Positions 25,567 through 55,960 of a DNA stretch of 64,000 nucleotides are shown one piece after another. The position numbers were made by a program, and so were the translations under genes. This DNA is from Malus domestica (Eukaryota; Streptophyta; Magnoliopsida; Rosales; Rosaceae). The notes beneath the pieces are model-generated. The model saw only the letters and a program-made list of their open reading frames with translations. It made no database searches and had not been told where the DNA came from. The stretch's first letter is position 1, and every line of letters begins with the position of its first letter. The stretch is from positions 30,247,501 through 30,311,500 of the forward strand of contig NC_091661.1 in NCBI RefSeq assembly GCF_042453785.1. The letters run 5' to 3'.

Positions 25567-25835
25567 CAAATTGAACGGTAACGTCATCAACACCTTCAAG
25601 TGCCATCATTTGGTTTGATTCTAGCTCGTTTCTTCAAGGTGCCTCTCGGCATAGGTTTCGATATATGACAGGAGGGGTTCCGAAAATTTCTTGCACAGTC
25701 CGACCAGGTCATTGTATTGTTTATTGAGATTAAGGATTATGAAAGTTCATTATTTTCGAAGCTTGGTGATTCTTTGCCTTGTAAATCATTTTTGTTTTGA
25801 TCAACTGATTTATAGGTCTCATTGCCCTTGTTTTA

Positions 25836-26034
25836 GGACAGGGATCCCAGCCGGATCTCCCCCACCAAGTCCTAAGGATCGGAGATCCGGACCCTTGAAA
25901 TTTGATCCAACGACTACAATTATTATCACTTTTAGAAGGATCCCTTGTTTATAGTCATTTGATCAAATTTCAATGGTCCAGATCTCCGGATCCTTAGGAT
26001 TTGGTGGGGTGAGATCCGGCTAGGATCTCTGTCC
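25836..26034. mobile_element. Mutator-type MITE with 9-bp target duplication
   Basis: 199 bases with long inverted ends (GGACAGGGATCCCAGCCG against the complement of CTAGGATCTCTGTCC; pairing extends about 70 bases through GATCCGGAGATCCGGACC-like sequence). It is flanked by the 9-base repeat CTTGTTTTA (25827-25835 and 26035-26043). It sits just downstream of the At3g49140-like gene. The duplicated copy is at 30411-30610. Confidence 0.8.
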
Positions 26035-26094
26035 CTTGTTTTAACCTATTGGATCATAACCTCAGGTTAAATATATATAAGTGTGTGTGTTACG

Positions 26095-26235
26095 TTAAGT
26101 TGTTGCGGATAAATGCACAAACGCTACATGTAGAAATTGGGGATGGATCCACACTGAAGACACTTTTAAGTGATCCGCTTCGACGACGGGCAACAATTTG
26201 CAATCTTCAAATTATATGTTTGGGTATGTCTTCCT
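26095..26235 (+). pseudogene. Relic of an F-box-gene leading exon
   Basis: The stretch GACGGGCAACAATTTGCAAT then CTTCAAATTATATGTTTGGG plus GTATGT aligns with the end of F-box exon 1 at 26975-27020 (CGGCAGACAACTTGCCATCT, GAAATTAGGGGTCCGG, GTATGT), including the donor site. It has no downstream coding exon. Further relatives are at about 30700-30835 (segment duplicate) and 57712-57835. Confidence 0.5.
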
Positions 26236-26847
26236 TGTAAATGCGAGTTAATTTTAAAAAGGCATGTAAAGATTGTGTAAATATTAGGAGTCCTTTATTA
26301 GGAAGGATATGTGTTTGTGTTCTTTATTATTTCCTTATGGAACAAGGATTGTATTTGTATATAATTGATTATGTAATAATTCAAGTCATAAAATTCTAAT
26401 TTGGTATCACTAAATAGTTTTCGATTCTCGTCAAAAGTAAATTTGAATTACATTATTGCTACTAAATTATGAGGCTCAACTCATTCCCTCTCTTAGCATA
26501 AATAATATCATTTACTAAAAAAAATAAAAAACAAAATTTTGGTACATTCCCTCTTAGTAAAAAAAAAATCGTTTGTTAAAAAAAGAAAGTACACATATCA
26601 CCGGTTCTTTTGAATTGTGGGTTCAAGTGGGTCCCACTACCTATATTTCCCTATTATTTTGAAGGTCATTTATTATTAGAAATATTGATAACCTTTTTAA
26701 TCGTTTTATCTTTATCTAGTCACTCAAGTAAACCTCTGTCATCCCAAATCTTATTAGGAAAATCTTGTACCTATTCATTGTGGAAGTAGGAGTGCATAAA
26801 CCCTAAATCCTATTATTTTAGGGAATTGTAAAAAAATTTATTTATAA

Positions 26848-28424
26848 ATGGAGGGAGAAGAAATGTTTAATCAGTCAATTAGATTATACTCAAGGCTTTT
26901 AACGTTCGATAAATTCTCCCATGATCCTTGTAAAACAAAAAGTCTCGTTGGCCTGAGGTCTACCTCTAGCGATTGGCTCCGGCAGACAACTTGCCATCTT
27001 GAAATTAGGGGTCCGGGTATGTTTCTCTCAAAATATTTTATTGTGTTCTTTGTGTTGCTTAGCTGCTTTTTTTCTTTTAATTTATTTTGTTCTTTGTGGT
27101 AGTGTTCTTCTTCTCTAGCAAATCGTATTCGTTTGAATATAATTTTCTAATTCCAAATAATCCAAAGTGTGAGCCTCTCTCGTTGCATCATGTTGAATCG
27201 TTGATAGTATTGCAAATCTCGGACTAACTCGTTATTTATTTATTTTTTCTTTTTGTTTTTGTAGATTGGGCAAACTTGCCTACAGAGGTTGTGGGTTTAA
27301 TTTCAGAGAGATTGACATTAGACAGAGACTACTTCCTATTCGGTATGGTGTGTAAGTCATGGCATCGTAAAACGAAGAATAATGCAATACGAATTTCTAC
27401 AATGTCGACTCGTCATCGTGCCCCGATGCTCTTGTTTTCTACCGGCAACAACGGTGTGTGGAGGTTATACGATGTCATGCGCGACAAGGTCCTTGATTTA
27501 CAGCTAAAATTATCAAAAAAACGGTTTTGTGGATCATCAAAAGGATGGTTAATAGCTGTGGAAGAGGATTTTACGATAACCTTAATCAATCCGGTGTTTA
27601 GGGTTAAGGGCAGGAAAGTGAAAGAAAATTCAATCATCCGTCTTCCTCCGTTCAACCCTCCAAGCTGGGAAGACGTATGTATTTGGAGGCCTAACTATGG
27701 TGTTTACAAGGCCACAATTACAGCTGATCCAATACTAGATGCAGACAATTGCGTTGTGTTGGTCATATACGAAGGTCGTTGTCAGTTGGCTTTTATTAGA
27801 CTCAACAAAGACAAAATGTGGACTTACATCGAAGACCTGAGGTTCGTACTTTTCGAAGTTGTTCCGGTTCGAAATCAATTCTACGCTGTTGGTGGTGATG
27901 AGTCGCAACTTTTATCTTTCGACATTACTGCTCGTTCCAGTTCGGATATAAAATTTATTACTACAAGGAAACCAGACGAATTTTTTACGAGGCTATATCT
28001 CGTGAGTGTAAACGAGGAGGAGTTGTTGACGGTTGCTAGGTACATTGATCACGATTATGAACGTGAGAAACGTGTGACAAAAAAATTTGAAATTTTCAAG
28101 TTGGATTATTTGAAGCGCGAGTGGATTGAGAAAAAAAGCTTGGGTGATGTGGCTCTCCTTTTGGGTGACAACTCTACCGTTGCCGTTGTGGCTTCGAATA
28201 TTCCTGGATGCCGGTCGAATTGCATATACTTCACCCATGATGAAGATCGTCAGTCAACAATTGAGTTTGGTGGCCGTGGACCTCATGATTTAGGTGTGTA
28301 TGATCTCGAAAGCGGAATCGTTGATCCACAGCGGCCTTTCACTTTCAGCAAGCTTGCTATGGAGATGGTGAGCAACAGTATTCGGCCTCCGATTTGGATT
28401 GTGCCGACATTTCAGTACTTGTAA
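26848..28424 (+). CDS. F-box protein with DUF295 (KIB) domain
   Basis: Two coding exons, 26848-27016 and 27265-28424, join in frame (GGT CCG G | AT TGG) to give 442 residues. The F-box is at about 57-95 (DWANLPTEVVGLISERLT, YFLFGMVCKSWH). A DUF295 beta-propeller-like domain follows with the marks GSSKGWL, LINPVF, IIRLPPFN, LAFIRLNKDKMWTYIE and CIYFTHDE. Family knowledge: these proteins are predicted substrate receptors of SCF ubiquitin ligases, an expanded, fast-evolving family in plants. Exon 1 carries SSDWLRQTTCHLEIRGP, which looks like a decayed second F-box start, so the true start could be inside exon 2. It is a complete gene beside a broken duplicate at 31590-32420. Confidence 0.8.
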
Positions 28425-28744
28425 AGAGCTTGTTTTAATTTTTTCGTCATTTAGTTTCTTTAAAACATGCCCATTGGCAGATTTGTCTTACGTATAAGAA
28501 AAAGCGTACACCTGTGGCCAGCGGTCCGATTTACCGGAAAATTCGACTTTTTCGAAAAATTATCAAATTTTATCAGAATGAAGATCTTAATGAGTAGAGT
28601 AAGTTTTATCCCTGTGACCAAGTTCAATTTGGCCGGGAAAAGCCTCAATTTGGCTCGCACCCGTCGGAAACCTTAAGGTGGGTGTTCTTCGATTCGACTT
28701 CCTCGGTGTTTCAACGCCCCTACAACTGGTTGGGTCTTGTTCCT
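28425..28744. other. 3' flank of F-box gene, nothing firm
   Basis: Contains the F-box 3' untranslated region and a stretch with inverted ACTTTTTCGAAAAAT and GACCAAGTTCAATTTGGCCGG motifs. It is probably part of an unrecognised repeat, but no end could be placed. Confidence 0.35.
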
Positions 28745-29004
28745 GGGTCTAAGGGGAGTTGATTAAGGGTGGTGGTGGGTGGTGAGACTCGCCGGAATGG
28801 TTTAAGCATTTTGTGTCGGTTATATCCGACACAATTTCTGTCGGTTTTAGAGTATTTTCTGTCGGAAAATTAATTCCCTGACTTAGACAATTATGTCGCT
28901 TATTAAATCCTCCATTTTCTGTCGGATTTTGCTTAAAATTTGACAGTAATATATGTTTTTTGTCGGTTTTCAAAACGCCACTAATAACTAGTTTCCTAGT
29001 AGTG
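28745..29004. mobile_element. Terminal fragment of a CACTA-type transposon
   Basis: Ends in ACTAGTTTCCTAGTAGTG at 29004, the complement of a CACTACTAGGAAAC terminus typical of plant CACTA (CMC) transposons. It is preceded by several subterminal TGTCGG motifs (28815-28970). No matching opposite end or transposase was seen, so only one end remains or the rest was lost in the duplication. Confidence 0.6.
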
Positions 29005-29228
29005 ATCATATACTTGTTTTTCCAATTTTACCCTCACTTTTGATACCCAAACACAATATTTACATAAGGAGGACAAAATAGGGGAAAAAAAAAGAAAAAA
29101 GTTGACAAGAAGGCTTCTCTTAATATAATAGTATAGAAAAAAAATATCCACTTGTTAAGAGAAATTGTCCACACATACAAAATGTGTGCTCTCTGCTAGT
29201 TAAAATTAAAAAGACATCCTAAAGAAAT

Positions 29229-30141
29229 GGTTAAATCTTTTGTTCTAATTCTCCACGGACTGTTGTTGAAGTAGAAGACTTTGTAAAAGCCCAACCCGAT
29301 GCCATTGCACACTCGGCAGCTAAAATGATATCTCGTCTGAAAGCTGATGGAGAAGAGACCACGCAAGCTCTCAAGTCCTTATGTTGGAGACTAAAGGGTC
29401 TTCAAGTGGAGGTACCACTTCTTTTTTTTGCCGACATATTCGAACTTGTTAAACCAGTTTCCACATCTGTTTCCAAGACGTGGCTGTAGGTTTTGCACTC
29501 CTTTTTTTTTTTTTACAATTTTGAACAACTTCAAAACTTATGTTCTCCAGAAAGGTTGTGTTAGATTGAATGCCCAACTTCTGTGATATATGAGATCGTC
29601 TTCAACACCCACAAAGGCTAGAATCTGATTTCGTAGAATGAGAAAGTCTATTTTACATATCTATCCCAATCTTGTTAAATCCGCCTTTAATGTTGTTGTT
29701 GCAAATCAATGTAGTCTTATCGATGATTAATCTTTGTCGAATTATATTGCAGGAGGCAGTACTTATTGGTGTAGATTCCCTTGGATTTGAATTAAGGGTA
29801 TGCTCAGGAACACAAGTCCAGACATTGAGATTCGCACTTAACACACGGGTAAGCCAATTATCTTTAATCCATGGCGTTTAACGTTCCATCTATCTTCCGC
29901 ATATTATTGAGCCATCTCTGAACTCTGAAGCACAATAAAATGTAGTTGCAAATTCCTCTGTTACTCTTTCAGAACCATGAAATACAACATGCTTGTGTTG
30001 AAAAGTAGCGTTGCCTTTGGTTTGGTTACCTCGTCTACCGTGTGGTTTCAGGCAACTTCTGAGTACAGTGCTGAGAGACAACTCAATGATCTGCTATTCC
30101 CAAGGATGCAGCAGAAACCACAAACAGTGAAACAAACTTAG
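29229..30141 (+). pseudogene. Duplicated 3' end (exons 8-10) of the At3g49140-like gene
   Basis: Matches 24672-25567 almost base for base. It covers exon 8 (to about 29411), exon 9 (29753-29848) and exon 10 (30052-30141, with the stop kept). The acceptor before exon 8, CTCCAG|ACT in the parent, reads CTCCACGGACT here, so it is lost. There is no promoter or upstream exon. Encoded differences are few (for example Glu for Asp in GFELRV), which suggests a recent copy. Probably not expressed as protein. Confidence 0.8.
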
Positions 30142-30410
30142 CAAATTGAACGGTAACGTCATCAACACCTTCAAGTGCCATCATTTGGTTTGATTCTAGC
30201 TCGTTTCTTCAAGGTGCCTCTCGGCATATGTTTCGATATATGACAGGAGGGGTTCCGAAAATTTCTTGCATAGTCCGACCAGGTCATTGTACTGTTAATT
30301 GAGATTAAGGATTATGAAATTTCATTATTTGCGAAGCTTGGTGATTCTTTGCCTTGTAAATCATTTTTGTTTTGATCAACTGATTTATAGGTCTCGTTGC
30401 CCTTGTTTTA

Positions 30411-30610
30411 GGACAGGGATCCCAGCCGGATCTCCCCCACCAAGTCCTAAGGATCCGGAGATCCGGACCCGTGAAATTTGATCCAACGGCTACAATTATT
30501 ATCACTTTTAGAAGGGTCTCATGTTTATAGTCATTTGATCAAATTTCAATGGTCCGGATCTCCAGATTCTTAGGATTTGGTGGGGTGAGATCCTGCTGGG
30601 ATCTCTGTCC
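30411..30610. mobile_element. Mutator-type MITE, duplicated copy
   Basis: Copy of the element at 25836-26034 with the same 9-base flanks CTTGTTTTA (30402-30410 and 30611-30619). Present in both duplication units, so it inserted before the duplication. Confidence 0.8.
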
Positions 30611-30646
30611 CTTGTTTTAACCTATTGGATCATAACCTCAGGTTAA

Positions 30647-30688
<42 letters not shown>
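30647..30688. repeat. (AT)n(GT)n microsatellite
   Basis: About nine AT then twelve GT repeats. The parent at about 26076-26092 has only a few. A marker of post-duplication change. Confidence 0.85.
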
Positions 30689-30699
30689 TACGCTAAGTT

Positions 30700-30835
30700 G
30701 TTGCGGATAAATGCACAAACGCTACATGTAGAAATTGGGGATGGATCCACACTGAAGACACTTTTAAGTGATCCGCTTCGACGACGGGCAACAATTTGCA
30801 ATCTTCAAATTATATGTTTGGGTATGTCTTTCTTG
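30700..30835 (+). pseudogene. Relic of an F-box leading exon, duplicated copy
   Basis: Unit B counterpart of 26095-26235, nearly identical, with the same GGGTATGTC donor-like end. Confidence 0.45.
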
Positions 30836-31589
30836 TAAATGTGAGTTAATTTTAAAAAGGCATGTAAAGATTGTGTAAATATTAGGAGTCCTTTATTAGG
30901 AATGATATATGTTTGTGTTCTTTATTATTTCCTTATTGAACAAGGATTGTATTTGTATATAATTGATTATGTAATCATTCAAGTCGTAAAATTCTAATTT
31001 GGTATCACTAAATAGTTTTCGATTCTCGTCAAAGGTAAATTTGAATTACATTATTGCTAGTTCATTATGAGGCTAAACTCACTCTCTTTCTCTTTAGTAT
31101 AAATAATATATTTAGCTAAAAAAACAAAAAACAAAATTTTGGTACATTCTCTCTTAGTAAAAATAATATCGTTAGTTAAAAAAACAAAATTTTGGTACAC
31201 ATAGCTCCAGTTATTTTGAATTGTGGGTTCAAGTGGGTCCCGCTACCCATATTTCCCTATTATTTTGAAGGTCATTTATTATTAGAAATATTGATAACCT
31301 AAAGAAAACTAATGAAAAATGTATGAAAATTTTGAATTTTAATAATAAACAAAATAAAAGATAAAGTGAATAGTATCAGAAATGATTTTTTAGTGTAAAA
31401 GTAAACAGTAACAAGAATTTTTCGTTAAAGTTTTATTTTATAACTCGGTTTTATCTTTATCTAGTCACTCAAGTAAACCTCTGTCATCCCAAATCTTATC
31501 GGGAAAATCATGTACCTATTCGTTGCGGAAGTAGGAGCAGAAACCCTAAATCCTATTCTTTTAGGAATTGTAAAAAAAATTATATATAA

Positions 31590-32420
31590 ATAACGGAAGA
31601 ATAAATGTTTAATCAGTCAATTAGATTATAATAAGGCTTTTAGTGATCGATAAACATTTTCCTACGATCCTTGTAAAGCAAGAAATCTTGTTGGCTTGTA
31701 GTCTACCTTTAGCGATTGGCTCCGGTTGACAACTTGACATCTTGAAATTATGGGTCCGGGTATGTTTCTCTCAAAATATTTTATTGTGTTATTTGTGTCG
31801 CTTAGCTCTTTTTTTTTTTTTTTTAATTTATTTTGTTCTTTGCGTTATTGTTCTTCTTCTCTCGCAAATCGTATTCGTGTGAATATAATTTTCTAATTCC
31901 AAATAATCCAAAGTGCGAGCCTCTCTCGTTGCATCATGTTGATAGTATTGCAAATCTCGGACTAGATCGTAATTTAATTAATTTTTTTTTTGTTTTTTGT
32001 AGATTGGGCAAACTTGCCTGCAGTTGTGGGTTTAATGACCCGGCTTCTCTGCCCTCCCAGTTTCTATATACTCTCATCATCTCTTATTTTTGGCAATTAC
32101 GTCAACATTTTATATTGATTTTTTTATAGGATGATAAGATAAAAAGAAATAGTGATATAAAATGTTGACGTGATTTAACCGTAACCGCATAAGTAGAAGG
32201 GAATGAGAGTGTATGGAAACTGAGAGGGCAGAGAAGTCAGGTCCGGGTTTAATTTCAGAGAGATTGACATTAGACAGAGACTACTTCCTATTTGGTATGG
32301 TGCGTAAGTCATGGCATCGTAAAACGAAGGACAATGCAATACGATTTTCTACAATGTCGACTCGTCATCGTGCTCCGATGCTCTTGTTTTCTACCGGCAA
32401 CAACGGTGTGTGGAGGTTAT
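31590..32420 (+). pseudogene. Truncated DUF295 F-box pseudogene with MITE inside
   Basis: Matches the F-box gene from exon 1 (about 31590-31760) and the start of exon 2 (from 32003). Exon 1 has lost the start region seen at 26848 and carries several changes. Exon 2 lacks three bases near CCTGCAGTTGTGGG and is split by a 208-base MITE. The match ends after GTGTGTGGAGGTTATA, about 70 codons into exon 2. No DUF295 domain remains. Confidence 0.8.
32037..32244. mobile_element. Mutator-type MITE inserted in F-box pseudogene
   Basis: 208 bases with inverted ends (CGGCTTCTCTGCCCTCCCAG against the complement of CTGAGAGGGCAGAGAAGTC) and a perfect 9-base target duplication GGGTTTAAT (32028-32036 and 32245-32253). 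The uninterrupted site is present in the parent gene (GTGGGTTTAATTTCAGAG at about 27290), so the insertion and its empty site can both be read here. Confidence 0.9.
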
Positions 32421-32449
32421 AGATGATGTTATGAGAGTATTATCCACTT

Positions 32450-32970: not shown

Positions 32971-33213
32971 TCGTCTGTCAAATGGTGTCTCGTTTGTTTG
33001 GCGGTGGAGGAGATGAGAGAGGACAAATGCCGTTAACCTTAAAGTGGTAAGAGCATCTCCAAAGGAGAAGTAAGAAAGTCCACATGAGCAGTAACAATTA
33101 AAAAAAAAACACAGCATTAGTGAATTCCAATGCCTATGTGGCATAATGTGGATTGACAGTTTTTTTCAAATCAATTTAAAGTGATTAATAAATGTTTTTC
33201 ATCATTATATTTT
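32971..33213. other. Flank of composite LINE insertion
   Basis: A/T-rich sequence with a TAAGAGCATCTCCAAAGGAG motif near 33048 that resembles Harbinger MITE ends. It ends with the left copy of the 16-base target duplication TTCATCATTATATTTT (33198-33213). Confidence 0.5.
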
Positions 33214-33860
33214 ACAACAACAACAACAACAACAACAAAGCCTTTTCCCACTAAGTGGGGTCGGCTATATGAATCCTAGAACGTCATTGCGCTCGGTTTT
33301 GTGTCATGTCCTCCGTTAGATCCAAGTACTCTAAGTCTTTTCTTAGAGTCTCTTCCAAAGTTTTTCTAGGTCTTCCTCTACCCCTTTGGCCCTGAACCTC
33401 TGTCCCGTAGTCACATCTTCGAACCGGAGCGTCAGTCGGCCTTCTTTGCACATGTCCAAATCATCGGAGCCGATTTTCTCTCATCTTTCCTACAATTTCG
33501 GCTACTCCTACTTTACCTCGGATATCCTCATTCCCAATCTTATCCTTTCTCGTGTGCCCACACATCCCACGAAGCATCCTCATCTCCGCTACACCCATTT
33601 TGTGTACGTGTTGATGCTTCACCGCCCAACATTCTGTGCCATACAACATCGCTGGCCTTATTGCCGTCCTATAAAATTTTCCCTTGAGCTTCAGTGGCCT
33701 ACGACGGTCACACAACACGCCGGATGCACTCTTACACTTCATCCATCCAGCTCGTATTCTATGGTTGAGATCTCCATCTAATTCTCCGTTCTCTTGCAAG
33801 ATAGATCCTAGGTAGCGAAAACGGTCGCTTTTTGTGATCTTCGCTAGATTGCTCCGGTCA
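33214..33860 (-). mobile_element. RTE LINE 3' fragment with TTG-repeat tail
   Basis: On the minus strand it encodes the LINE C-terminal region from [12 protein letters not shown] through [19 protein letters not shown] and the [15 protein letters not shown]-like end, with frame changes near the end. It then shows CCCACTTAGTGGGAAAAGGC and eight TTG units. The TTG tail is diagnostic of plant RTE LINEs. Its 5' side ends in NDRSNLAKITK-like sequence not found in the longer copy. Confidence 0.75.
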
Positions 33861-33865
33861 TTAGT

Positions 33866-35220
33866 GTGGATAAGTATATAAATGGATAGAGATAGGAAAG
33901 CAAACACAAGATGTACGTGGTTCACCCAGATTGGCTACGTCCACGGAATAAAAGAGTTCTCATTAATTGTGAAGGGTTTACACAAGTACATAGGTTCAAG
34001 CTCTCCTTTAGTGAGTACAAGTGAATGATTTAGTACAAATGACATTAGGAAATATTGTGGGAGAATGATCTCGTAATCACGAAACTTCTAAGTATCGGAG
34101 TGTGGTGTCGTCTTGACTTGCCTTATCTGTCTCATAGGTAGATGTGGCATCTTCTCTGGAAGTACTCTTCCTCCATCCAAGGGTGGTATCTTTAACTGGT
34201 GGAGATGCACAAGGTAATGTATCAATTTCACTTGAAGCTTACTTGTAGTCTCAGGCTTGGTCAAGCGCGATACAAACCATGTAGTAGGAGTCCCCCAAGT
34301 CGCCGAGCTAGGGGGTCTGCTGAAAGAGGTGACAGACAAGGTAAGCAATCAGAGCTCCGACTGATTGTTCACCTTCTCCCCATCTTGCAGCAGCATGAAG
34401 GATAAAAAGAAGAAAAATGAGAAGAGATGATATGAGATACTTTTGCTTTTGAAGAAGTAACTTTCCACAGGCTTATTCTTGAACTGAGCTGGAGGGTTTT
34501 CTGGTTTCCTCCAGAGTATAAGGCCGACTGAAGAATTTGAGGGTCAAAACAAGTCCATCAAATCTAGAGTACGTTCCACCCTGCTGATATGGGATACTTT
34601 TTCTTTTGACAGAGTAATGGATGTATCGGCACGTGTGCTGTTACGCTTGTCTCCACATGCTTCCTTGTATCCTTCGCACTTGCCCTATCTGTTCCTCAAG
34701 CAGATGCGGAATCTTCCCTGGAAACATAAGATGTTGAAGATGAGTACTCGAGAGCAATGCCAGGTAAGTAATCAGGTAAGGGGTTCCAGGCAGTCAGTTC
34801 CTGGCTGGAAGGTTGATTCCAAGTGCTGACTGATTGCTCTCTTTCTCCTTGTCTTGCAGGTAAAAACAAGGCCAAAGGAAAAGACAGGGAAAAAGCATGA
34901 TATGAGATACTCTTGCTTTTAACCCTGATGATATGAGATATTCTTGCTCTAGTATAGCTTGTTTGCAGAGGTATTATCGGGGGGAAAGAAAGCTGAATAT
35001 TTCGAAAGACTTCGTTGGGAGTGCCCTCTCAGATATGATGAAGGGTTGAGCATTTTTGCAGGTCTGCCTGTCCGTTGGGGATGGAGGTCGACATATATAG
35101 GAGTCTCCCTAACAACAAGTAGTAATGCTATTCCTTTACCCTGCTTGGTCATAGCACGGTAGTGGGAGTTGCCAGTTTCACATGTTTTAACTCTGTCAGA
35201 GCACTTTGAAAAAGTGGTCT
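33866..35220. other. Non-LINE interior of composite element
   Basis: Begins TGTGGATAAGTATATAAATG. It contains ACGTGGTTCACCCAGATTGG and two GATATGAGATACTTTTGCTT repeats (about 34431 and 34904). The wording is familiar from high-copy apple repeats, but LTR ends could not be paired within the window. No convincing frame was seen. Confidence 0.4.
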
Positions 35221-35224
35221 GTGG

Positions 35225-37225
35225 TATCTGGCTCTCGAGATTCGGAGAACGATGCCTCTTCGATTTTTGAGAAAGCAATCATGCTGGGGGTCTGGCTCTC
35301 GAGATTCGGAGAGCAGTGTCTCTTCGATTTTTGAGGAAGTAATCATGTTGGGAGTCTGGCTCTCGAGATTCGGAGGGCGGTGCCTCTTCGATTTTGGAGC
35401 AAGCAATCCTGTTGGGAGTGTTGTCTCGAATGTGAGTAAAGGTTGGGCATGTTTGCTAGTCTACCTTGCCACGAAGCATAAAGGTTGACACACAGGGACT
35501 TTCCAATTATCCAGCAATGGTACTATTCCTTTACCCTCTCTTCGCTTTTGAGAAAGTAGTCATGTTGGGAGTCTGGCTCTCGAGATTCGGAGGACGGTGC
35601 CTCTTCGATTTTGGAGCAAGCAATCTTGTTGGGAGTGTTTTCTCGAAAGTGAGTAAAGGTTGGGCATGTTTGCTAGTCTACCTTGCCACGAAGCACAGAG
35701 GTTGACACACAGGGACTTTCCAATTATCCAGCAGTGGTACTGTTCCTTTACCCTTGTGGGTAATAATATGGTAGCTAGACCTTCAAAATTTATGTGTCTA
35801 AACTTTGTTAGTGCTGTTTCTTTGCTATTCTTTTACCTTTCTTGGTCAGAGCGATGTAGTGGGAGCTGCAAGCTTCACGTGCTCAACTTTGGCAGAGAAC
35901 TTTGACAAAGTTATATGTGGTACCCATGAGCTATTGTTGCGTGTGGGAAGTGGGTGATTGAACAGTAAGATTCATGTGCTTTCTACTTCACCAGAAGTCT
36001 TCGACAGAATGCCCATAATTTCTGCAAAGCTGAGTGTGCGTGTGACAGGTGCTGACAAGGCTAGAAAAGTAGGTGCCTCTTCGATTTCTGAGATCGGCCC
36101 TCGTGGTCTCTGAGCAGCCCAGCTTTTGAGAAAGCGAGCACCTCTTCGATTGATTCGGAGAACGATGCCTCATCGATTTTTAAGAAAGCAATCATGCTGG
36201 GGGTCTGGCTCTCGAAGATTCGGGGAGCAGTGTCTCTTCGATTTTTGAGAAAGTAATCACGTTGGGAGTCTGGCTCTCGAGATTCGGAGGGCGGTGCCTC
36301 TTCGATTTTGGAGCAAGCAATCTTGTTGGGAGTGTTTTCTCGAATGTGAGTAAAGGTTGGGCATGTTTGCTAGTCTACCTTGCCACGAAGCACAGAGGTT
36401 GACACACAGGAACTTTCCAATTATCCAGCAATGGTACTGTTCCTTTACCCTCTCTTCGATTTTTAAGAAAGTAATCATGTTGGGAGTCTGGCTCTCGAGA
36501 TTCGGAGGACGGTGCCTCTTCGATTTTGGAGCAAGCAATCTTATTGGGAGTGTTTTCTCGAATGTGAGTAAAGGTTGGGCATGTTTGCTAGTCTACCTTG
36601 CCACGAAGCACAGAGGTTGACACACAGGGACTTTCCAATTATCCAGCAGTGGTACTGTTCCTTTACCCTTGTGGGTAATAATATGGTAGCTAGACCTTCA
36701 AAATTTATGGGTCTAAACTTTGTTAGTGCTGTTTCTTTGCTATTCTTTTACCCTTCTTGGTCAGAGCGATGTAGTGGGAGCTGCAAGCTTCACGTGCTCA
36801 ACTTTGGCAGAGAACTTTGGCAAAGTTATCTGTGGTACCCATGAGCTATTGTTGCATGTGGGAAGTGGGTGATTGAACAGTAAGATTCATGTGTTTTCTA
36901 CTTCCCTAGAAGTCTTCGACAGAATGCCCATAATTTCCGCAAAGCTGAGTGTGCGTGTGACGGGTGCTGACAAGGCTGGAAAAGTAGGTGCCTCTTCGAT
37001 TTCTGAGATCAACCCTCGTGGTCTCTGGGGAGCCTAGCTTTTGAGAAAGCGAGCGCCTCTTCGATTTCTGAGATCGGCCTTCGTGGTCTTTGAGCAGCCC
37101 AACTTTTGAGAAAGCAAACGCCTCTTCGATTTCTGAGATCAACCCTCGTGATCTCTAAGCAGCCCAGCTTTTGAGAAAGCAAACGCCTCTTCGATTTCTG
37201 AGCAGGCGCCTCTTCGATTTCTGAA
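35225..37225. repeat. Nested tandem repeat block upstream of the coiled-coil gene
   Basis: The short unit CTCTCGAGATTCGGAG then GCCTCTTCGATTTTTGAG (about 65 bases) recurs many times. A 218-base unit starting TCTTCGATTTTGGAGCAAGC occurs at about 35385, 35603, 36299 and 36516. A 913-base unit holding two of these is itself duplicated. The right end has CTCTTCGATTTCTGAGATC units about 73 bases apart. The block abuts a TATA box and transcript leader, so it may be promoter sequence built from repeats. Confidence 0.75.
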
Positions 37226-37247
37226 GCTCCGTCTCCGTCGAGTGCAG

Positions 37248-37256
37248 ATTTTTATA
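37248..37256 (+). promoter_or_regulatory. Probable TATA element of the coiled-coil gene
   Basis: TTTTTATAGAGGC lies about 110 bases before the start codon at 37364, directly after the tandem repeat block and before a pyrimidine-rich leader ending CTCTTCAACACCTTTGAAA. Inferred from position. Confidence 0.4.
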
Positions 37257-37363
37257 GAGGCTGGCATTAAGTTCCAAAGCACACTTGAATCTCCACCAGT
37301 AGAAGCTTCATTCTTGCACTTCTAAGATCTTGATTTGTTCGACCTCTTCTCTCTTCAACACCT

Positions 37364-38044
37364 TTGAAAATGTCTGGCCCCTCCGACCGTCGTTTTGACT
37401 TGAACCTTGTTGAAGAGGCAGCCCCGCCTTCTCCGGACAACATATGGCGCCCATCCTTCGTCTCCCCTACTGGTCCTCTTACCGTTGGGGATTCCGTGAT
37501 AAAGAATGATATGACCGCTGCGGTGGTGGCCAAGAACCTTCTCACTCCCAAAGATAACAGACTACTTTCCAAACGGTCTGATGAGTTAGCTGTTAAGGAT
37601 TCGCTGGCTCTCAGTGTTCAGTGTGCAGGTTCTGTGTCTAATATGGCCCAACGCCTATTTGCTCGAACCCGCCAAGTTGAATCATTGGCGGCTGAAGTGA
37701 TGAGTCTCAAACAGGAGATTAGAGGGCTCAAGCATGAGAATAAACAGTTGCACCGGCTCGCACATGACTATGCTACAAACATGAAGAGGAAGCTTGACCA
37801 GATGAAGGAAACTGATGGTCAGGTTTTACTTGATTATCAGAGATTTGTGGGTTTGTTCCAAAGGCATTTATTGCCTTCGTCTTCTGGGGCTGTACCGCGT
37901 AATGAAGCTCCGAATGATCAACCTCTGATGCCTCCTCCTTCTAGGGTTCTGTCCAGTACTGAGGCTCCAAATGATCCCCCTCCGGTGCCTTCTCTGTCTG
38001 GGGCTCTACCGACTACTGAGACTTCTCCTAAGCAACCTTTGTGA
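37364..38044 (+). CDS. Unknown coiled-coil protein carried in composite element
   Basis: An intact 226-residue frame starting MSGPSDRRFDLNLVEEAAPP. A predicted coiled coil spans about 104-150 (VESLAAEVMSLKQEIRGLKH, ENKQLHRL, KRKLDQMKETDGQVL). The C-terminal 60 residues hold three degenerate Pro-rich repeats based on SSxxxPxxEAPNDxPPxP. No catalytic, zinc-knuckle, protease or integrase motif is visible, so it is neither a recognisable gag nor a host enzyme. A TATA box, leader and an AATAAATAAGC polyadenylation-like signal (about 38112) make a compact transcription unit. It sits opposite to the LINE strand. I recall similar frames in many copies in apple annotation but cannot verify this. Function unknown. 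Confidence 0.55.
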   Translation: MKMSGPSDRRFDLNLVEEAAPPSPDNIWRPSFVSPTGPLTVGDSVIKNDMTAAVVAKNLLTPKDNRLLSKRSDELAVKDSLALSVQCAGSVSNMAQRLFARTRQVESLAAEVMSLKQEIRGLKHENKQLHRLAHDYATNMKRKLDQMKETDGQVLLDYQRFVGLFQRHLLPSSSGAVPRNEAPNDQPLMPPPSRVLSSTEAPNDPPPVPSLSGALPTTETSPKQPL

Positions 38045-38299
38045 ATGCTCCGTCTTGTGTGTTTATTTTGACTTATGTATATGTACATATTTGTAGCTGA
38101 TCGGGGATATCAATAAATAAGCTTTCCTTCATTTCAACGTATTGTGTTAAATACACCAAAGCCTTCTTCGCTAAGTTCTTTGAATTTTCTTTTGTTGAAG
38201 CTTGTATGTTGAAGCTTTCTGAGTGGAGCATGTAGGTTGGGGTAGTGTCCCCTTAATTTCCCGAGTGAGGAAAACTTCTCGGTTAGAGACTTGGAAAAT

Positions 38300-40479
38300 C
38301 CAAGTCACTGAGTGGGATCGGCTATATGGATCTTAGAACGCCATTGTGCTCGATCCTGTGTCATGTCCTTCGTTAGATCCAAGTACTCTAAGTCTTTTCT
38401 TAGAGTCTCTTCCAAAGTTTTCCTAGGTCTTCCTCTACCCCTTCGGCCCTGAACCTCTGTCCCATAGTCGCATCTTCTAATCGGAGCGTCAGTAGGCCTT
38501 CTTTGCACATGTCCAAACCACCGTAACCGATTTTCTCTCATCTTTCCTTCAATTTCGGCTACTCCTACTTTACCCCGGATATCCTCATTCCTAATCTTAT
38601 CCTTTCTCGTGTGCCCACACATCCAACGAAGCATCCTCATCTCCGCTACACCCATTTTGTGTACGTGTTGATGTTTCACCGCCCAACATTCTGTGCCATA
38701 CAGCATCGCCGGCCTTATTGCCGTCCTATAAAATTTTCCCTTGAGCTTCAATGGCATACGGCGGTCACACAACACGCCGGATGCACTCTTCCACTTCATC
38801 CATCCAGCTTGTATTCTATGGTTGAGATCTCCATCTAATTCTCCGTTCTTTTGCAAGATAGATCCTAGGTAACGAAAACGGTCGCTCTTTGGTATTTCTT
38901 GATCTCCGATCCTCACCCCTAACTCGTTTTGGCCTCCATTTGCACTGAACTTGCACTCCATATATTCTGTCTTTGATCGGCTTAGGCGAAGACCTTTAGA
39001 TTCCAACACTTCTCTCCAAAGGTTAAGCTTTGCATTTACCCCTTCCTGAGTTTCATCTATCAACACTATATCGTCTGCGAAAAGCATACACCAAGGAATA
39101 TCATCTTGAATATGTCCTGTTAACTCATCCATTACCAACGCAAAAAGGTAAGGACTTAAGGATGAGCCTTGATGTAATCCTACAGTTATGGGAAAGCTTT
39201 CGGTTTGTCCTTCATGAGTTCTTACGGCAGTCTTTGCTCCTTCATACATATCCTTTATAGCTTGGATATATGCTACTCGTACTCCTTTCTTCTCTAAAAT
39301 CCTCCAAAGAATGTCTCTTGGGACCCTATCATACGCTTTTTCCAAATCTATAAAGACCATGTGTAAATCCTTTTTCCCATCTCTATATCTTTCCATCAAT
39401 CTTCGTAAGAGATAGATTGCCTCCATGGTTGAGCGCCCTGGCATGAACCCGAATTGGTTGTCCGAAACCCGTGTCTCTTGCCTCAATCTATGCTCAATGA
39501 CTCTCTCCCAGAGCTTCATTGTATGACTCATTAGCTTAATACCCCTATAGTTCATGCAATTTTGTACGTCGCCCTTATTCTTGTAGATAGGCACCAAAGT
39601 GCTTGTTCGCCACTCATTTGGCATCTTCTTCGTTTTCAAAATCCTATTGAAAAGGTCAGTGAGCCATGTTATACCTGTCTCTCCCAAAAGTTTCCACACT
39701 TCGATTGGTATATTGTCTGGGCCTATTGCTTTTTTATGCTTCATCTTCTTCAAAGCTACAACCACTTCTTCCTTCCGGATTCGACGATAAAAAGAGTAGT
39801 TTCTACACTCTTCTGAGTTACTCAACTCCCCTAAAGAATCACTCATTTCGTGTCCTTCATTGAAAAGATTATGAAAATAACCTCTCCATCTGTCTTTAAC
39901 CGCGTTCTCTGAAGCAAGAACCTTTCCATCCTCATCCTTGATGCACCTCACTTGGTTTAGGTCCCTTGTCTTCTTTTCCCTTGCTCTAGATAGTTTATAG
40001 ATATCCAACTCTCCTTCTTTGGTATCTAGTCGTTTATACATATCGTCGTAAGCCGCTAACTTAGCTTCTCTGACAGCTTTTTTCGCCTCTTGCTTCGCTT
40101 TTCTATACCTTTCACCATTTTCATCGGTCCTCTCCTTGTATAAGGCTTTACAACATTCCTTCTTAGCCTTCACCTTTGTTTGTACCTCCTCATTCCACCA
40201 CCAAGATTCCTTTTGGTGTGGGGCAAAGCCCTTGGACTCTCCTAATACCTCTTTTGCTACTTTTCGGATACAACTAGCCATGGAATCCCACATTTGGCTA
40301 GCTTCCCCCTCTCTATCCCACACACATTGGGTGATTACCTTCTCTTTGAAAATGACTTGTTTTTCTTCCTTTAGATTCCACCATCTAGTCCTTGGGCACT
40401 TCCAAGTCTTGTTCTTTTGTCTTACTCTTTTGATATGTACATCCATCACCAACAAGCGATGTTGATTAGCCACGCTCTC
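38300..40479 (-). mobile_element. RTE-clade LINE, 5'-truncated, long reverse-transcriptase frame
   Basis: An open frame of 722 residues (40473-38305). Reverse-transcriptase marks in order are [11 protein letters not shown] (251-261), [12 protein letters not shown] (341-352), motif [14 protein letters not shown] (373-385), motif [21 protein letters not shown] (432-451) and motif [12 protein letters not shown] (463-473). The RTE-typical C-terminus [20 protein letters not shown] and [20 protein letters not shown] follows. The N-terminal APE endonuclease is absent, so the copy is 5'-truncated and cannot move alone. The long intact frame suggests recent insertion. The 3' end lacks the TTG tail and joins ACTTGGATTTTCCAAG sequence instead. 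Confidence 0.85.
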
Positions 40480-40645
40480 TTCATCATTATATTTTGTTTT
40501 AAAAAAAAATAGTTATTACAACTATGACAAGTAAATGATGTAATAAACCCTCACAAAACTTGAAATGACAAACACCTTATACATATACTACATGCGGTTC
40601 ATTTCATCATACACAAGGGTGGCATTGAGTTGAGAGAAAGAAAAA

Positions 40646-40816
40646 ATGGGGAAAAGGGGTATGGGAAATCAGGGGAGCTTCGCCCATCATTCGAAGGGAA
40701 AGAAAGAAAGGATAAAATCTGAAAACTTGGTCTGCTTTCTGTGCTTCAAAAGCTTTGGCACCAAGAAAGCCTTTCAAGATCATCTGAATGACAGACGGAC
40801 TGCGGCAAATGCTTAA
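40646..40816 (+). CDS. 56-residue C2H2-zinc-finger-like frame, left hairpin arm
   Basis: The frame starts MGKRGMGNQGSFAHHSKGKK and contains VCFLCFKSFGTKKAFQDHL. The spacing Cys-x2-Cys-x12-His with Phe and Leu at core positions matches a plant C2H2 finger. The final ligand is Arg (HLNDR) where His is expected. The frame ends at TAA right after the finger. Too short for a known transcription factor. More likely a captured gene fragment kept in an inverted repeat, though the open frame is intact. Confidence 0.4.
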   Translation: MGKRGMGNQGSFAHHSKGKKERIKSENLVCFLCFKSFGTKKAFQDHLNDRRTAANA

Positions 40817-41210
40817 GTTGCGGGTGCTGCTTCAAGATTGAGTCCAGCTTCACCGACCATTTGGCTACATACCTACCGTACCGTAGAAGCAAACATACCA
40901 GACCCATACTGAACAAAATTAATTAATTTTAATTTATCCTTTTTTTTTTAATTATCAATGGTTCAGAACCTTAACCACATTACAGTATTGTTTCCATGAA
41001 ATCATTTGACGTACTTGGCCTTCTTGCATACCTGACTCATAAAAACCCATATAATTTGAGTATTAATTTTTATAATTAAAAAAAAAGGGATAAATTAAAA
41101 TTAATTAATTTTGTTCAGTATGGGTTTGGTATGTTTGCTTCTACGGTACGGTAGGTGTGTAGCCAAATGGTCGGTGAAGCTGGACTCAATCTTGAAGCAG
41201 CACCCGCAAC

Positions 41211-41381
41211 TTAAGCATTTGCCGCAGTCCGTCTGTCATTCAGATGATCTTGAAAGGCTTTCTTGGTGCCAAAGCTTTTGAAGCACAGAAAGCAAAACAA
41301 GTTTTCAGATTTTATCCTTTCTTTCTTTCCCTTCGAATGATGGGCGAAGCTCCCCTGATTTCCCATACCCCTTTTCCCCAT
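41211..41381 (-). CDS. 56-residue C2H2-zinc-finger-like frame, right hairpin arm
   Basis: The mirror of the frame at 40646-40816, intact, with Phe for Val before the first Cys (LFCFLCFKSF). Both arms keep an open frame. That could reflect recent origin, gene conversion between arms, or selection. Confidence 0.4.
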   Translation of the reverse strand: MGKRGMGNQGSFAHHSKGKKERIKSENLFCFLCFKSFGTKKAFQDHLNDRRTAANA

Positions 41382-41434
41382 TTTTTCTTTCTCTCAACTC
41401 AATGCCACCCTTGTGTATGATGAAATGAACCGCA

Positions 41435-41927: not shown

Positions 41928-43557
41928 TGTTCGTCGCAGGAATCTCCTGGCGGTCGAGCACACAGCTCTCCTGGGAGAATGGCGTCGGTTGAGGGTATCT
42001 GTCGTACTCCTGCTTTCTTCTCGGGCTTGCTCGGGCAAGCCTTCGTCGGGCAGATCTTGGTCGGGCAAGACACACTTCGGGCAAGGCTCGTCGGGCAGTT
42101 CTGAAAGAGAAGGACAGAGTTAATTTGAAAGGGTGCCTTTGTGGGGCCTTAGGTGTAGGCCTTGAGGCTCACAATCAAGATTAACTTTGTCGTGCTCAGG
42201 CGTGCCACTGCCATCTTCAGTATGGCAGATGTTGAATGGGTGTTTAAGCTTTGATTGAATATGTATACGCCCGAGAAACCGAGTTAGATATAACAGGTGC
42301 CTTTGTGAGACCTTAGGTATAGGCCTTGAGGCTTCCTGTCAAACTAAACCAGCGCTTGGATGTATCATATTTGGCCTTTTATGGTTGCCAGAGTTTTATC
42401 ACTATTATACCTTTGATTATCTGAATCCAAGAGGTAGGACGAACCCAAATGAGTGCCTTTGTAGGGCCTTAGGTATAGGCCTTGAGGCTTCCCATCAGAG
42501 TTAATCCTTATACTCGGACCAACTAGACCGCAACATAAAATGAAGCTAAATAGATGCCTTCGTGGGGCCTTAGGTGTAGGCCTTGAGGCTTTCTATCAGA
42601 ATTCACTCTATGCTTAAGCCTTTTCTACGAATCAAGATATAATAGCAACAAAACGGAGAAATAGATTGATTACTTGCGCCCCAAGTAACTTCGGACTTCT
42701 CGCTTATCAAGGATCGTCGTGGATGGGTTGAGTCCACATAGAGTTCTTTTTTATGCCTTGAGGCCAAGGACTTTTAAACTGATTTTTAAATTACATGCCC
42801 GCGGGCTTAAGCCTCAGATCTGATCTAAACTCTGACGTGATTCAGATCAGATTCAAGTGCTGAAGACTCATTTTCATTGTGATTTTGCCAGAAATAACTT
42901 GTATATAACTGAGAATATTTAACATGTTATTGTGCTTTTAAAAGAAAGAAAAGACAAAGACAGAGCAAAGATAGTCGGGTAAGTTTGAACCTTATCGGCC
43001 AAGGCTGAACTTCTTACAAAATCTATCTTTGTGGCTCTATCAGAGGTCTGAAAGCTTTCAGAAGGGGTTGATGGGGAGAATAGGATACAAAATGAATCGA
43101 TACCACCAAGAACAAGGTAGCAGAGCTATTACAGGGGTTTGGGAAGGTTTATCCCGAACGGGATGAAGGCTTGTGCTGACTACAGCTTTGTTGAAGGCAA
43201 ATCTGGCTTGAGCAGAGTTTTGGCTTTTGTTTGTTTGTTTGAGTGTCCCTAATTCTGTCTTCTCTTCCTCCTTTTATAGACGGATTCAGCTTGGGTTCCT
43301 GTAGCAATGGCGGTTGCCCGAATGCGGTTTGGTGATGACTCACTAGCTTTTTTACATGAATGCCACCAATAAAGTACTTTATTGGGCTGTGCAGTGATTG
43401 AATAACCTACCCCCTGTGGTCTTTGAGCAGGTAAGCAGGTGGCCTTTGTAATTTGTGCCCAGCCGAAAGCCTCTTTCCTGCCTCCTAAGTTTTCCTCTGG
43501 GCCTTGGGTTTGGGCCGACTTTCTCTCTGGCCCAAAGTTCAGATTTTATCCCAAACA
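41928..43557 (-). repeat. Tat element 3' LTR
   Basis: 1630 bases, paired with 50078-51708. Contains four spaced copies of GGCCTTAGGTGTAGGCCTTG-type sequence (about 42134, 42298, 42452, 42554). Confidence 0.9.
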
Positions 43558-44234
43558 GTGCCCCCTTCAATTGATGTTAAGGTTGGGATCCCAAGCGCCA
43601 ACATTAATTGAACAACAGCATGCGTGCCTTTTGAGCTTCCTGCGACCTTTAAACTACCTTCTGGTTCTCTATAAATTCTGGCTTTGGAAACCCTTTTCAA
43701 ATCATCACCTCTTCTTCATTTTGGTCTTTACCCCTCATCCACCTTGAATCATTCCGTCTTCCCACTGAGAAATGGGTTCCTCAGGTTTTGAGTGGAGTTT
43801 CCTGAAACTCCCCTTTCGTGAAAAATTTTCACCTGATGATTGCTACCTTCAACACCTTTGGTCGATCACCCCTCTACCTCCAACACCCTTGGTCAGGCGG
43901 TCTCCTCCTGATGACTGATCTTCCCACCACTTGTGGTGATAAGTTGGGCTTCATCATCATACATGGTGAAGATCTTGTAGGAGGGTCCCCTACCAAGCTC
44001 ATGTTGGCCGCACAACCCGATCACTTAATTGGGTTTCAACCAAGAAGATAACGGGAAACCAGTTGAAGACACCAACACTTTCAGAGAGGATCAAATGTAA
44101 TACATAGGATTTGGTATCTTGTAATCTCATCAATTTGTCGACATGAAATAAGAAATTTTATCTATTTCTACATCTCTGCCTTCTTTAAATGTTTGGATGA
44201 ACAAAACACCGTATGTGAATTTCTAAGGTCTGTC
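43558..44234. other. Tat element, non-coding stretch between pol and 3' LTR
   Basis: About 680 bases on the 3' side of pol in element orientation. It holds the polypurine tract and no conserved coding domain. Such spacers are common in Tat elements. Confidence 0.6.
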
Positions 44235-47200
44235 TCACTCTGCCCCCTCTTCAATATAGCAATCCCTAACATCCCATAATGTAGGACAATATTTCTTCAA
44301 GAATTTTGCATTAATAGGGTGTTTCTGCTCACTGCCTTCGAGGTCTGCCAGATAATATCCTCCTTTGTTCAAAACCCGACTAATAATAAAAGGACCTTCC
44401 CATGTCGGGCTCCATTTCCCGAAGCCACGCAGCTGAGCGCCTAGCGGGAGGACTGCTTTCCACGCTAAATCTCCTTCCTTGAAAGACTTTAACTTCACCC
44501 TTTTGTTATAAGCTCGGGCAACAGCAATCTTTCCTTCTTGAATCTGGTTCAAGGCTTCAATTCGGACTGCATCCAGATCTTCAATACCTTGACATATGGC
44601 TTCGATATATTCTGCACTATGCAACCCAAATTGGTTTTGAATTCTTACGGAACTGACGTTGATTTCCATAGGAAGCACTGCATCTTGCCCGAAAGTCAAG
44701 GCATAAGGAGTCGTGCCTGTCCCCGCTCTTTTAGAAGTCCGGTATGCCCACAATGTATTCCCTAGCATCTCATGCCACCTTTCTGGACTATCAATCACCA
44801 CCCTTTTAATAATGTTGACCAAAATCTTGTTGCTAGCTTCTGCTTGCCCATTTGACTGAGGGTAGTATGGACTGGATTGGATCATCTTTATTTTGTACTT
44901 GCTTGCAAACTCTTCAACCTCCTTCGAAATAAAAGATGGCCCACGATCTGTTACTATAGTTTCAGGCACCCCATACCTGTGCAGGATCTTGGTCTCAATA
45001 AAATTTTTGACCACGGCCGAAGTTATGGATTTTACTGCCGATGCTTCCACCCATTTGGTGAAGTAATCCGTTGCCACAATTATGAAAGTATGTCCCTTAC
45101 TAGAGGCCGGATAAATCTGCCCGATGAAGTCCATTGCCCATCCTCGGAACGGCCAAGGCTTGACCACTGGATTGAGAGGTACGGATGGTACATGCTGGAG
45201 AGGTCCATGTCTCTGACATTCTTCACATCCGCGGGCATAGGACTTACAATCTTTTTCCATGTCGGGCCAGAAATAACCATACCTTCTGAGTAGCCATCTC
45301 ATCTTCGTTCCCGCTTGATGTGCTCCACATATTCCCTCATGTACTTCGGCCATTACTCTCATGGATTCCTCTAGGCCTAAGCATTTTAATAGCAACCCAT
45401 CTGGGGTCTTCCTCAACAGATTTTTTGTCCACAATACATACTTGGTTGCTTGCTGCCTGTTCTTCTTACTTGTGGGTGAAGAAGGATCTTTCAGATACTG
45501 AGTAATAGGTGTCCTCCAATCTTTCACCTCGGTCTCTAGAACCATTACATCCAGACTGAACCTCCGATCTGAAATAGAGGGAAGGTTTCTTGTTTGGATC
45601 TCAACATCAACACCATACCTCCTTTCTTGCATTGGCACTCTTGAAGCTAGTTGCGCCATTTCATTGGCTGCCAAGTTAGATCCCCTAGGAATGTGATTGA
45701 CTGATATATCAGACTCCCACAAACTCAGCAGTTGTGTTGCTGCCATATAGTACCCTGCCATAGTGATATGTCTGCATTTGAACTCGCCATTTAGTTGATT
45801 TATCACTAACTCCGAATCACCAAAGATCTCTACTTCAGTTGCCCCCAAGTCCATCAGGATTTCCAGGCCGATAATCAATGCCTCATATTCTGCCCGATTA
45901 TTGGTATTTTCTTGATAATCAAGTAGGAAGGAATAGTAATGATAAACCCCTTGAGGGTTTATAATCACAATTCCAGCTCCTGCTGCCTTCTGAGTGTAGG
46001 ATCCGTCGAAATATAGCTTCCAAGGTGTAATCCAAAGACCTGCTACCCTCCTTATCTCTTGCTGGATCCAATCTTCCTTGCCCGAAACATCACTTCTTGG
46101 TGGGATCCAAACATTAGCAACTTCTAAACTTCCCGGGATATTGATTTCCTCACTTTGAGACTCCTGATGTTCGGTCAGGAAGTCAGCAATTGCCTGGCCT
46201 TTGACTGCCCTCTGGGGTATGTACTGAAAACTGAATTCTGATAATGCTAGAATCCACTTCCCAATCCTCCCTGCTAGCATAGGTCTTGACAACATATACT
46301 TTATCACATCTGTTTTGGCGATAATGTGCACATGACAAGGTAGCATGTAATGCCTTAGCTTGCTGGCAGTAAAATATAGAGCCAAACACAGTTTTTCCAC
46401 CGGAGAATATCTTGTTTCTACCTCGGTCAGAATTCTGCTGAGATAATACACAGCCTGCTCTTTTCCTCCTTCATTATTCTGAGCTAGTAGACTCCCAATT
46501 GATCTTTCCGATGCAGAAATATATAGTTTCAATGGCTTTCCCCTTTGAGGTGGCACCAGCACTGGTGGGGAAGTTAAGTAAGCCTTGATGCTATCAAATG
46601 CCTGCTGGTGGGTTGGCCCCCACTCAAAATTCTCCCTATCCTTCAATCTCAGTAGTGGAGTTAGTGGCTGGATTTTGCCCGCCAAATTGGCAATGAATCT
46701 CCTTAAGAAGTTGATTTTCCCTAGCAATCTCTGAAGCTGTACTTTGTTGGTAGGTGGAAGTGACTCTAATATTGCCCGAGACTTATTTTTGTCCACCTCC
46801 ACACCTCTCTGATGTACCAAAAATCCCAAAAAATTGCCCGCTCTCACTCCAAAAGCGCATTTCTTTGGATTCATCTTCAACTTGTGGATCCGCATCCTCA
46901 TCAATGCTTGCTTGAGGTCCACGAGATGCTGCTCTTCTGTCTTAGATTTCACCACAATGTCATCTATATACACCTCCATGCTTTGGCCAATTAAATCATG
47001 AAAAATGGCATTCATTGCCCTTTGATACGTGGCGCCTGCATTTTTGAGCCCGAATGGCATGACCAGATATTCATATGCCCCCACATGACCAGGACATCTA
47101 AAAGCTGTCTTATGAATATCCTCTGGCGCCATCTTTATTTGATTGTAACCGGCATTTCCATCCATAAACGATAAAACTTTATGCTTTGCTACAACATCTA

Positions 47201-55836: not shown

Positions 55837-55960
55837 GGCTTTCAATTATGACTAACTCCAAGAACCTTCAATACAATTGTGACACATGGCTATATCCTAA
55901 CATCAAGTTCATCAAAAGGACAGAGGACTGGTAAATGCTCGAGCTGCGGGTGCTGCTTCA

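Follow-up and report, generated by a model that had tools for sequence, protein, structure and literature searches.

The stretch of DNA analyzed here, which we call the window, comprises 64,000 nt of the apple genome (Malus domestica, GCF_042453785.1, NC_091661.1, positions 30,247,501 to 30,311,500, forward strand). It contains a 7.3-kb block (33214 to 40479) in which two 5'-truncated copies of a long interspersed nuclear element (LINE) lie on either side of an unrelated segment that carries an intact open reading frame, and a single 16-bp target-site duplication encloses all three parts (Table 1). Read in the LINE sense, which is the minus strand, the order is duplication, LINE A (40479 to 38306), segment X (38305 to 33841), LINE B (33840 to 33214, tail included), and duplication. 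The block is a real and well-preserved chimeric LINE, the product of a known kind of event that is unusual in its size and its cargo. A sequence-only reading of the window had described an exact 16-base duplication just outside both ends of the block, an RTE-type TTG tail at one end with the other end lying inside the LINE frame, a LINE 3' region present twice, and, between the two copies, an unrelated 4.4-kb segment with an intact coiled-coil gene. Each of these features was recovered in our analysis, and the limits that we place on the segment, about 33841 and 38305, fall close to the 33860 and 38300 proposed earlier.

Table 1. Features of the chimeric block and its immediate flanks, in window coordinates.
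Feature	Position	Strand	Remarks
Left copy of 16-bp target-site duplication	33198..33213		Exact match at boundary
(TTG)n tail of LINE B	33214..33238	-	ACA array, 8.3 copies, 100% matches; reversed TTG
LINE B, 5'-truncated RTE 3' end	33214..33840	-	Two nonsense codons in frame; 5' limit uncertain, 33834-33840
Junction 1	33835..33864		LINE homology stops at 33834 (perhaps 33840); 30 unassigned nt, then TGTGGATAAG
Segment X, unrelated to LINE	33841..38305	+	4,465 nt (limits approximate)
Tandem-repeat arrays within X	35227..37202	+	Units of 64-65 bp and 217-218 bp; a 915-bp tandem duplication among them
Intact 224-aa frame	37370..38044	+	Helix predicted at residues 60-167; no Pfam family at cut-off
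AATAAA poly(A)-type signal	38112..38117	+	68 nt past stop codon of 224-aa frame
17-nt palindrome, right end of X	38289..38305		Touches junction 2; stretch folds at -12.0 kcal/mol
LINE A, 5'-truncated RTE copy	38306..40479	-	2.17 kb; open 722-aa frame; reverse transcriptase domain
Right copy of 16-bp target-site duplication	40480..40495		Exact match at boundary
Nine-T run (LINE sense)	40501..40509	-	6-14 nt upstream of duplication; resembles RTE target signature

One target duplication encloses the whole block

The duplicated sequence, TTCATCATTATATTTT, matched nowhere else in the window even with up to two mismatches allowed. At least two such loose matches were also obtained in 2 of 100 shuffles of the whole window, so what counts is that the match is exact and sits at both boundaries. 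When the two 64-nt flanks were dinucleotide-shuffled 20,000 times, with a slack of 0 to 3 nt, the longest boundary-anchored match was 12 nt, and this was reached once. The left copy of the duplication directly adjoins the (ACA)8.3 array that is the reversed (TTG)n tail, and the right copy lies 6 nt away from codon 1 of the open LINE frame, at 40473. Separate insertions should each carry a duplication of their own, and the LINE ends were paired in all four possible ways, with up to 8 nt of slack allowed. The 5' end of LINE A shared 16 of 16 nt with the 3' end of LINE B and 3 nt with its own 3' end; the 5' end of LINE B shared 3 nt with the 3' end of LINE A and none with its own. Only the outer pairing, the 5' end of A with the 3' end of B, carries a duplication. 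At junction 2, there was neither a duplication nor an upstream T run.

Upstream of the duplication in the LINE sense, the sequence reads TTTTTTTTTAAAAC, with nine consecutive T residues at -14 to -6 before the first base. The published plant RTE target signature is a T stretch about 10 nt upstream that tends to at least four T residues in legumes (PMC13295347). Nine T residues at that offset were found at 151 of 127,880 positions on the two strands of the window (0.12%), and at 5 of the 2,030 positions that start with AAAA like the insertion site, 236 of which have at least four. The match to the plant RTE signature appears good but is not decisive. An RTE insertion event is backed by the lone outer duplication and, to a lesser degree, by the T run.

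The two LINE copies and their junctions with segment X

The frame of LINE A is open from 40473 to 38305 (722 aa) and contains a reverse transcriptase domain (Pfam RVT_1, E value of 2.8e-36); its protein matches LINE-1 ORF2 and R2 chains in the PDB by sequence. LINE B is too short to include that domain. Both copies share one orientation, and the LINE 3' region that they have in common occurs in direct order at 33249 to 33834 and at 38306 to 38891 (586 nt, 93.9% identical). Relative to LINE B, LINE A lacks the tail and the last 10 nt preceding it, its 3' end being otherwise nearly complete. A (TTG)n tail, rather than poly(A), is the tail type given for plant RTE LINEs (PMC3747384). Judging from this tail and the T run, LINE A and LINE B would both be plant LINEs of the RTE clade.

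Junction 2 lies inside a short stem of the LINE 3' end (CCCACTTAGTGGG in LINE B), and it is there that X starts with its 17-nt palindrome; the minus-strand reading of 38290 to 38305 is ACTTGGATTTTCCAAG. The stem and hairpin at this junction would make a plausible pausing site. At junction 1, the sequence at 33865 to 33874 is TGTGGATAAG, and the 30 unassigned nt before it recurred nowhere in the window apart from chance matches of 9 to 10 nt. In searches with the LINE parts, the LINE A protein gave no pattern match in viral contigs and eight in prokaryote genome contigs, none of them confirmed, and an exact DNA pattern from the LINE end had no match in viral contigs. The block as a whole had no match in the phage collection.

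Over the 586 ungapped nt, LINE A and LINE B differ at 36 positions (6.1%). With paths averaged in codons that carry two changes, 20 of these differences are synonymous and 16 non-synonymous, giving a dS of 0.18, a dN of 0.036, and a dN/dS of 0.20. When the same mutation spectrum was placed at random in 5,000 neutral draws, 24.4 amino acid changes were expected versus the 15 seen (P = 0.0002). Two in-frame nonsense codons are present in LINE B besides the normal stop, which brings the stops in this stretch to three (P = 0.18 for so many under neutrality), and the 722 codons of LINE A contain no internal stop versus about 3.1 expected under neutrality at half the divergence (P = 0.03). The synonymous excess indicates that LINE A and LINE B derive from two LINE lineages that diverged under selection, and it makes a local duplication of one LINE unlikely.

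The only close relative of LINE A and LINE B that we found was an RTE element in NZ_CP104070.1, a record in the plasmid collection, and this element was taken as the outgroup. It showed 68% DNA identity, with 411 of 626 aligned sites identical to LINE B; the other seven of the eight plasmid-collection records fell below 60% identity and were mostly annotated as bacterial reverse transcriptases. With this outgroup, 31 of the 36 differences could be polarized, 16 to the A branch and 15 to the B branch, and the five undecided ones are all synonymous. The effect of each polarized change was assigned by hand from the codon list. On the B branch, 9 of 15 changes are non-synonymous, which is near the neutral expectation of 0.68 (P = 0.34 for so few). 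The A branch has 6 of 16 (P = 0.012), or 4 of 14 (P = 0.003) without two doubtful sites, namely, the TGA site of the outgroup itself and the site next to junction 2. Joint decay of the two copies within the block would leave A as neutral-looking as B. The changes on the two branches suggest that LINE B is an old, dead copy and that LINE A was newly copied from a working LINE at the time the two were joined.

The outgroup record, NZ_CP104070.1, is 39.8 kb long and labelled as an Alicyclobacillus fastidiosus plasmid, and its plant-like RTE LINE with a TTG-type tail is at 20001 to 21713. The record is typed IncFIA, and the table that PLSDB holds for it, which is incomplete, has two features only, both catA1 predictions. 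It is probably a mislabelled bacterial artificial chromosome or fosmid clone with plant DNA.

Segment X and its 224-aa frame

The 915-bp tandem duplication in X has 33 mismatches over 913 aligned sites, and no second copy of X was found within the window. The 224-aa frame is on the strand opposite to the LINE and is the sole ATG frame of at least 150 aa in X. A length of 224 aa was reached in none of 1,000 shuffles of the region of the frame (longest, 211) and in 1 of 300 shuffles of the whole of X. The protein gave 13 weak Pfam matches, none at the family cut-off, and several of these are coiled-coil proteins. A single-sequence AlphaFold model predicted one long helix, with a mean predicted local distance difference test score (pLDDT) of 68.9, a predicted template modelling score of 0.35, and 75 residues with a pLDDT of at least 90. 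For such a predicted product, the label "coiled-coil gene" seems fair.

No relative of the protein that could show selection was found in the viral, prokaryote, and plasmid collections or in the PDB. Three pattern matches in viral contigs and 30 in genome contigs were obtained and none was confirmed, a single-protein query reaching close relatives only; no plasmid matched, and the best PDB hit had an E value of 0.42. The DNA of X had no match among the plasmids, and two exact patterns drawn from it had none in viral contigs. The absence of a copy of X from the viral, prokaryote, plasmid, and phage collections is as expected for plant DNA.

Several identities for X or its gene were considered and rejected. 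For a long terminal repeat (LTR) or solo LTR, the TG...CA ends alone are weak, and X has neither a second copy in the window nor a 5-bp duplication (its neighbours are CTCAG and CTAAT). One end of X has a hairpin, as a Helitron might, but the LINE positions on either side differ by 586 nt and belong to different LINE copies; this was judged by eye, with no dedicated search. If X and LINE B had entered the tail of LINE A as a separate insertion by target-primed reverse transcription, a duplication and an upstream T run would belong at junction 2, which has neither. A retrotransposed mRNA of the coiled-coil gene would have the wrong strand, and the gene retains repeats upstream as well as a poly(A)-type signal on its own strand; being antisense to the LINE with an AATAAA of its own strand, the gene was not carried as its own mRNA.

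How the block may have formed

The reading that we favor, and to which we give a little less than an even chance, is that the block is a single insertion by an RTE-clade LINE with a chimeric complementary DNA (cDNA), formed by a template switch from an X-B RNA to a LINE A RNA. An older genomic block of X and LINE B would have existed at a source locus and been transcribed; we take X-B as pre-existing because a dead, 5'-truncated LINE B beside X is the expected look of an old LINE that had simply inserted into X or alongside it. The RTE protein would then have nicked a T-rich site, and reverse transcription would have started on an RNA made up of X followed by LINE B, at its (TTG)n tail, with LINE B supplying the RTE recognition end. 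Synthesis of cDNA would have passed through X, jumped to a LINE A RNA close to the 3' end of the latter, and stopped early inside the LINE A frame, with repair leaving the 16-bp duplication outside. LINE A would have been joined during reverse transcription rather than afterwards, and the coiled-coil gene would be an antisense passenger. Such a scheme builds on the outer duplication, the T run, the tail, the 5' truncation, the common orientation, and the two LINE lineages that the block displays. What favors a template switch over later repair is that the 3' end of LINE A is nearly complete, that junction 2 falls in a stem, and that precedents are known.

A number of findings weigh against this scheme. 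X resembles genomic DNA in having tandem repeats and a gene that runs opposite to the LINE, which favors repair. The switch also requires an assumed 4.4-kb RNA antisense to the gene and implies a cDNA of 7.27 kb. The duplication and the T run are equally expected if a plain LINE A inserted first and X-B arrived later; they do not separate a template switch from repair. At the published threshold, moreover, the T run is weak evidence, at least four T residues being found at that offset at 11,701 of the 127,880 positions (9%). The first base of the duplication is an A versus the T of published legume RTE duplications, those of Bov-B and horse RTE starting with A (PMC13295347). As for the relative age of the two copies, the direct contrast between A and B does not reach significance (Fisher P = 0.29; with the two doubtful sites omitted, 0.14), and with so distant an outgroup some of the polarization calls will be wrong.

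Post-insertion repair is the strongest competitor, and we regard it as quite possible, at appreciably less than an even chance. A plain LINE A would have inserted with its duplication, and a later break at its 3' end would have been mended with sequence from another locus: the tail side would pair with the homologous tail present on an old LINE B and copy B together with its neighbour X, and the new end would be ligated to A with the loss of 10 nt. Neither an RNA of X nor a 7-kb cDNA is needed, and the position of junction 2 beside the tail of A, with 10 nt and the tail lost, is accounted for, as are the older appearance of B and the fit of the duplication to the 5' end of A. The antisense gene and the genomic look of X favor it too. 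The price is ectopic copying over about 5 kb, together with end joining, and the block retains no second set of the last 10 nt of A and no sign of a break.

Unlikely, in our view, is read-through (3' transduction), in which LINE A stood upstream of X and LINE B at the source locus and one A-X-B RNA, extending to the tail of B, was inserted whole. This would supply one template, one duplication, and LINE parts all in one orientation. However, the last 10 nt and the tail of LINE A, which should have been kept in a source LINE, are missing at junction 2, and an extra deletion would be required.

We consider it very improbable that the block is an assembly artefact in which two loci were misjoined. 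Assemblies do err at repeats, but a matching 16-bp duplication placed exactly at both outer ends is unexpected from a misjoin, an argument that applies to the outer ends and not to an internal misjoin at junction 1 or 2. Least credible of all, with hardly any probability left to it, is a single LINE into which X inserted and whose 3' end was duplicated locally, for which the direct order of the repeated 3' region speaks and against which stand the 6.1% divergence, the dN/dS of 0.20, and the uninterrupted 722-codon frame of A; the sequence-only reading's second proposal, later insertion and recombination inside one LINE, is disfavored with it.

The first proposal of that reading, that RTE machinery transduced a passenger gene, survives in part. 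The single outer duplication and the T run fit an RTE insertion, and mobilization of the gene by RTE appears possible; given its antisense orientation and own-strand AATAAA, "passenger" applies only in a weak sense. As a further conjecture, which we consider unlikely, X and LINE B might together represent an SVA-like composite retroposon family of plants, about 5 kb long and non-autonomous, with variable tandem arrays and an antisense gene, mobilized by RTE through the borrowed 3' end. The copy in this block would then have been fused with LINE A RNA at insertion.

Surroundings in the window

A full-length LTR retrotransposon is present on the minus strand at 41928 to 51708. Its LTR pair has 8 mismatches over 1630 aligned sites, its flanking 5-bp repeat is CTCAC, and its 1237-aa frame has reverse transcriptase, RNase H, and integrase in Ty3 order. 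The insertion is young and lies at a distance of 1.4 kb from the chimera. Near the right copy of the target duplication lies an inverted repeat (40593 to 41434) with 366-nt arms that are 98% complementary and 110 nt apart, and with related pieces near 55430 to 57330; it is probably a foldback element or one of the miniature inverted-repeat transposable element type. The window also holds a direct duplication of more than 2 kb at 94% identity (24668 to 26694 and 29226 to 31300, with further blocks within 24668 to 32425) that flanks a KIB1-4 beta-propeller gene at 27345 to 28424. Another direct duplication spans about 2.8 kb, its two copies (2960 to 5801 and 6492 to 9310) being 90% identical, and is accompanied by smaller related blocks. 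Genes in the window match the Pfam families KIB1-4 beta-propeller and Photosynthesis affected mutant 68, both of which are plant families. No tRNA and no Rfam match was found in the window.

DISCUSSION

Chimeras of a comparable kind are known from fungi and mammals. A tripartite chimera of WEIRD, Mg-SINE, and MGL in Magnaporthe grisea has a 14-bp duplication, and mouse B2/U6/L1 chimeras have duplications of 15 and 16 bp (PMC2104539). Like the apple block, these consist of three parts with a 5'-truncated LINE at the 3' end and one short direct repeat around the whole. They differ in that their added parts copy known sense transcripts, whereas the apple block has a 4.4-kb middle with an antisense gene between outer parts that appear to be RTE LINEs of two lineages. 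Among the features listed for LINE chimeras, the single duplication around all parts and a 5'-truncated LINE as the 3' part, here LINE B, are both present, and the shared orientation of A and B and the nearly complete 3' end of A also agree with that list. With respect to the orientation of the added parts, LINE A is in the LINE sense and the only ATG frame of at least 150 aa in X is antisense. The mammalian LINE-1 chimeras with host RNAs likewise carry a single duplication and 5' parts fused to the LINE, for which template switching or RNA ligation has been proposed; they belong to the L1 clade, are bipartite, and mostly involve short sense RNAs, unlike the apple block (PMC13174262).

Within plants, the Sadhu retroposons of Arabidopsis offer a precedent, with chimeric copies that have been attributed to template switching, a 150-bp stretch that may have been transduced, and duplications of 7 to 16 bp. 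As presented in PMC2848041, they are poly(A)-tailed, non-coding, and not tied to RTE, and their foreign stretches measure 19 and 150 bp versus the 4.4 kb with a gene in the apple block. Tobacco TS, a short interspersed nuclear element (SINE), has a (TTG)n tail and is related to RTE-1_STu in a manner reminiscent of the apple block, since an RTE 3' end is shared with a non-autonomous partner; TS is a SINE, whereas in apple the RTE 3' end (LINE B) is attached to a 4.4-kb segment (PMC3747384). No plant RTE chimera turned up among the open-license papers listed for plant LINE chimeras, transduction, and RTE, as judged mostly by title and the start of the abstract. Stretches of the LINE, of X, and of the 224-aa protein had no match in that literature, and short motifs gave three papers, all unrelated.

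What is new here is the two-lineage origin of LINE A and LINE B, the chimera itself being a known by-product of such elements. The synonymous excess between repeated LINE ends, combined with the pairing of all LINE ends, provides a cheap test of chimera versus local duplication. If the proposed origin is true, this plant RTE chimera, with more than 4 kb of other DNA and an intact gene, would mean that the RTE machinery of plants is able to move stretches as large as a gene, and if the junction of X and LINE B recurs, it would point to a gene-bearing retroposon family.

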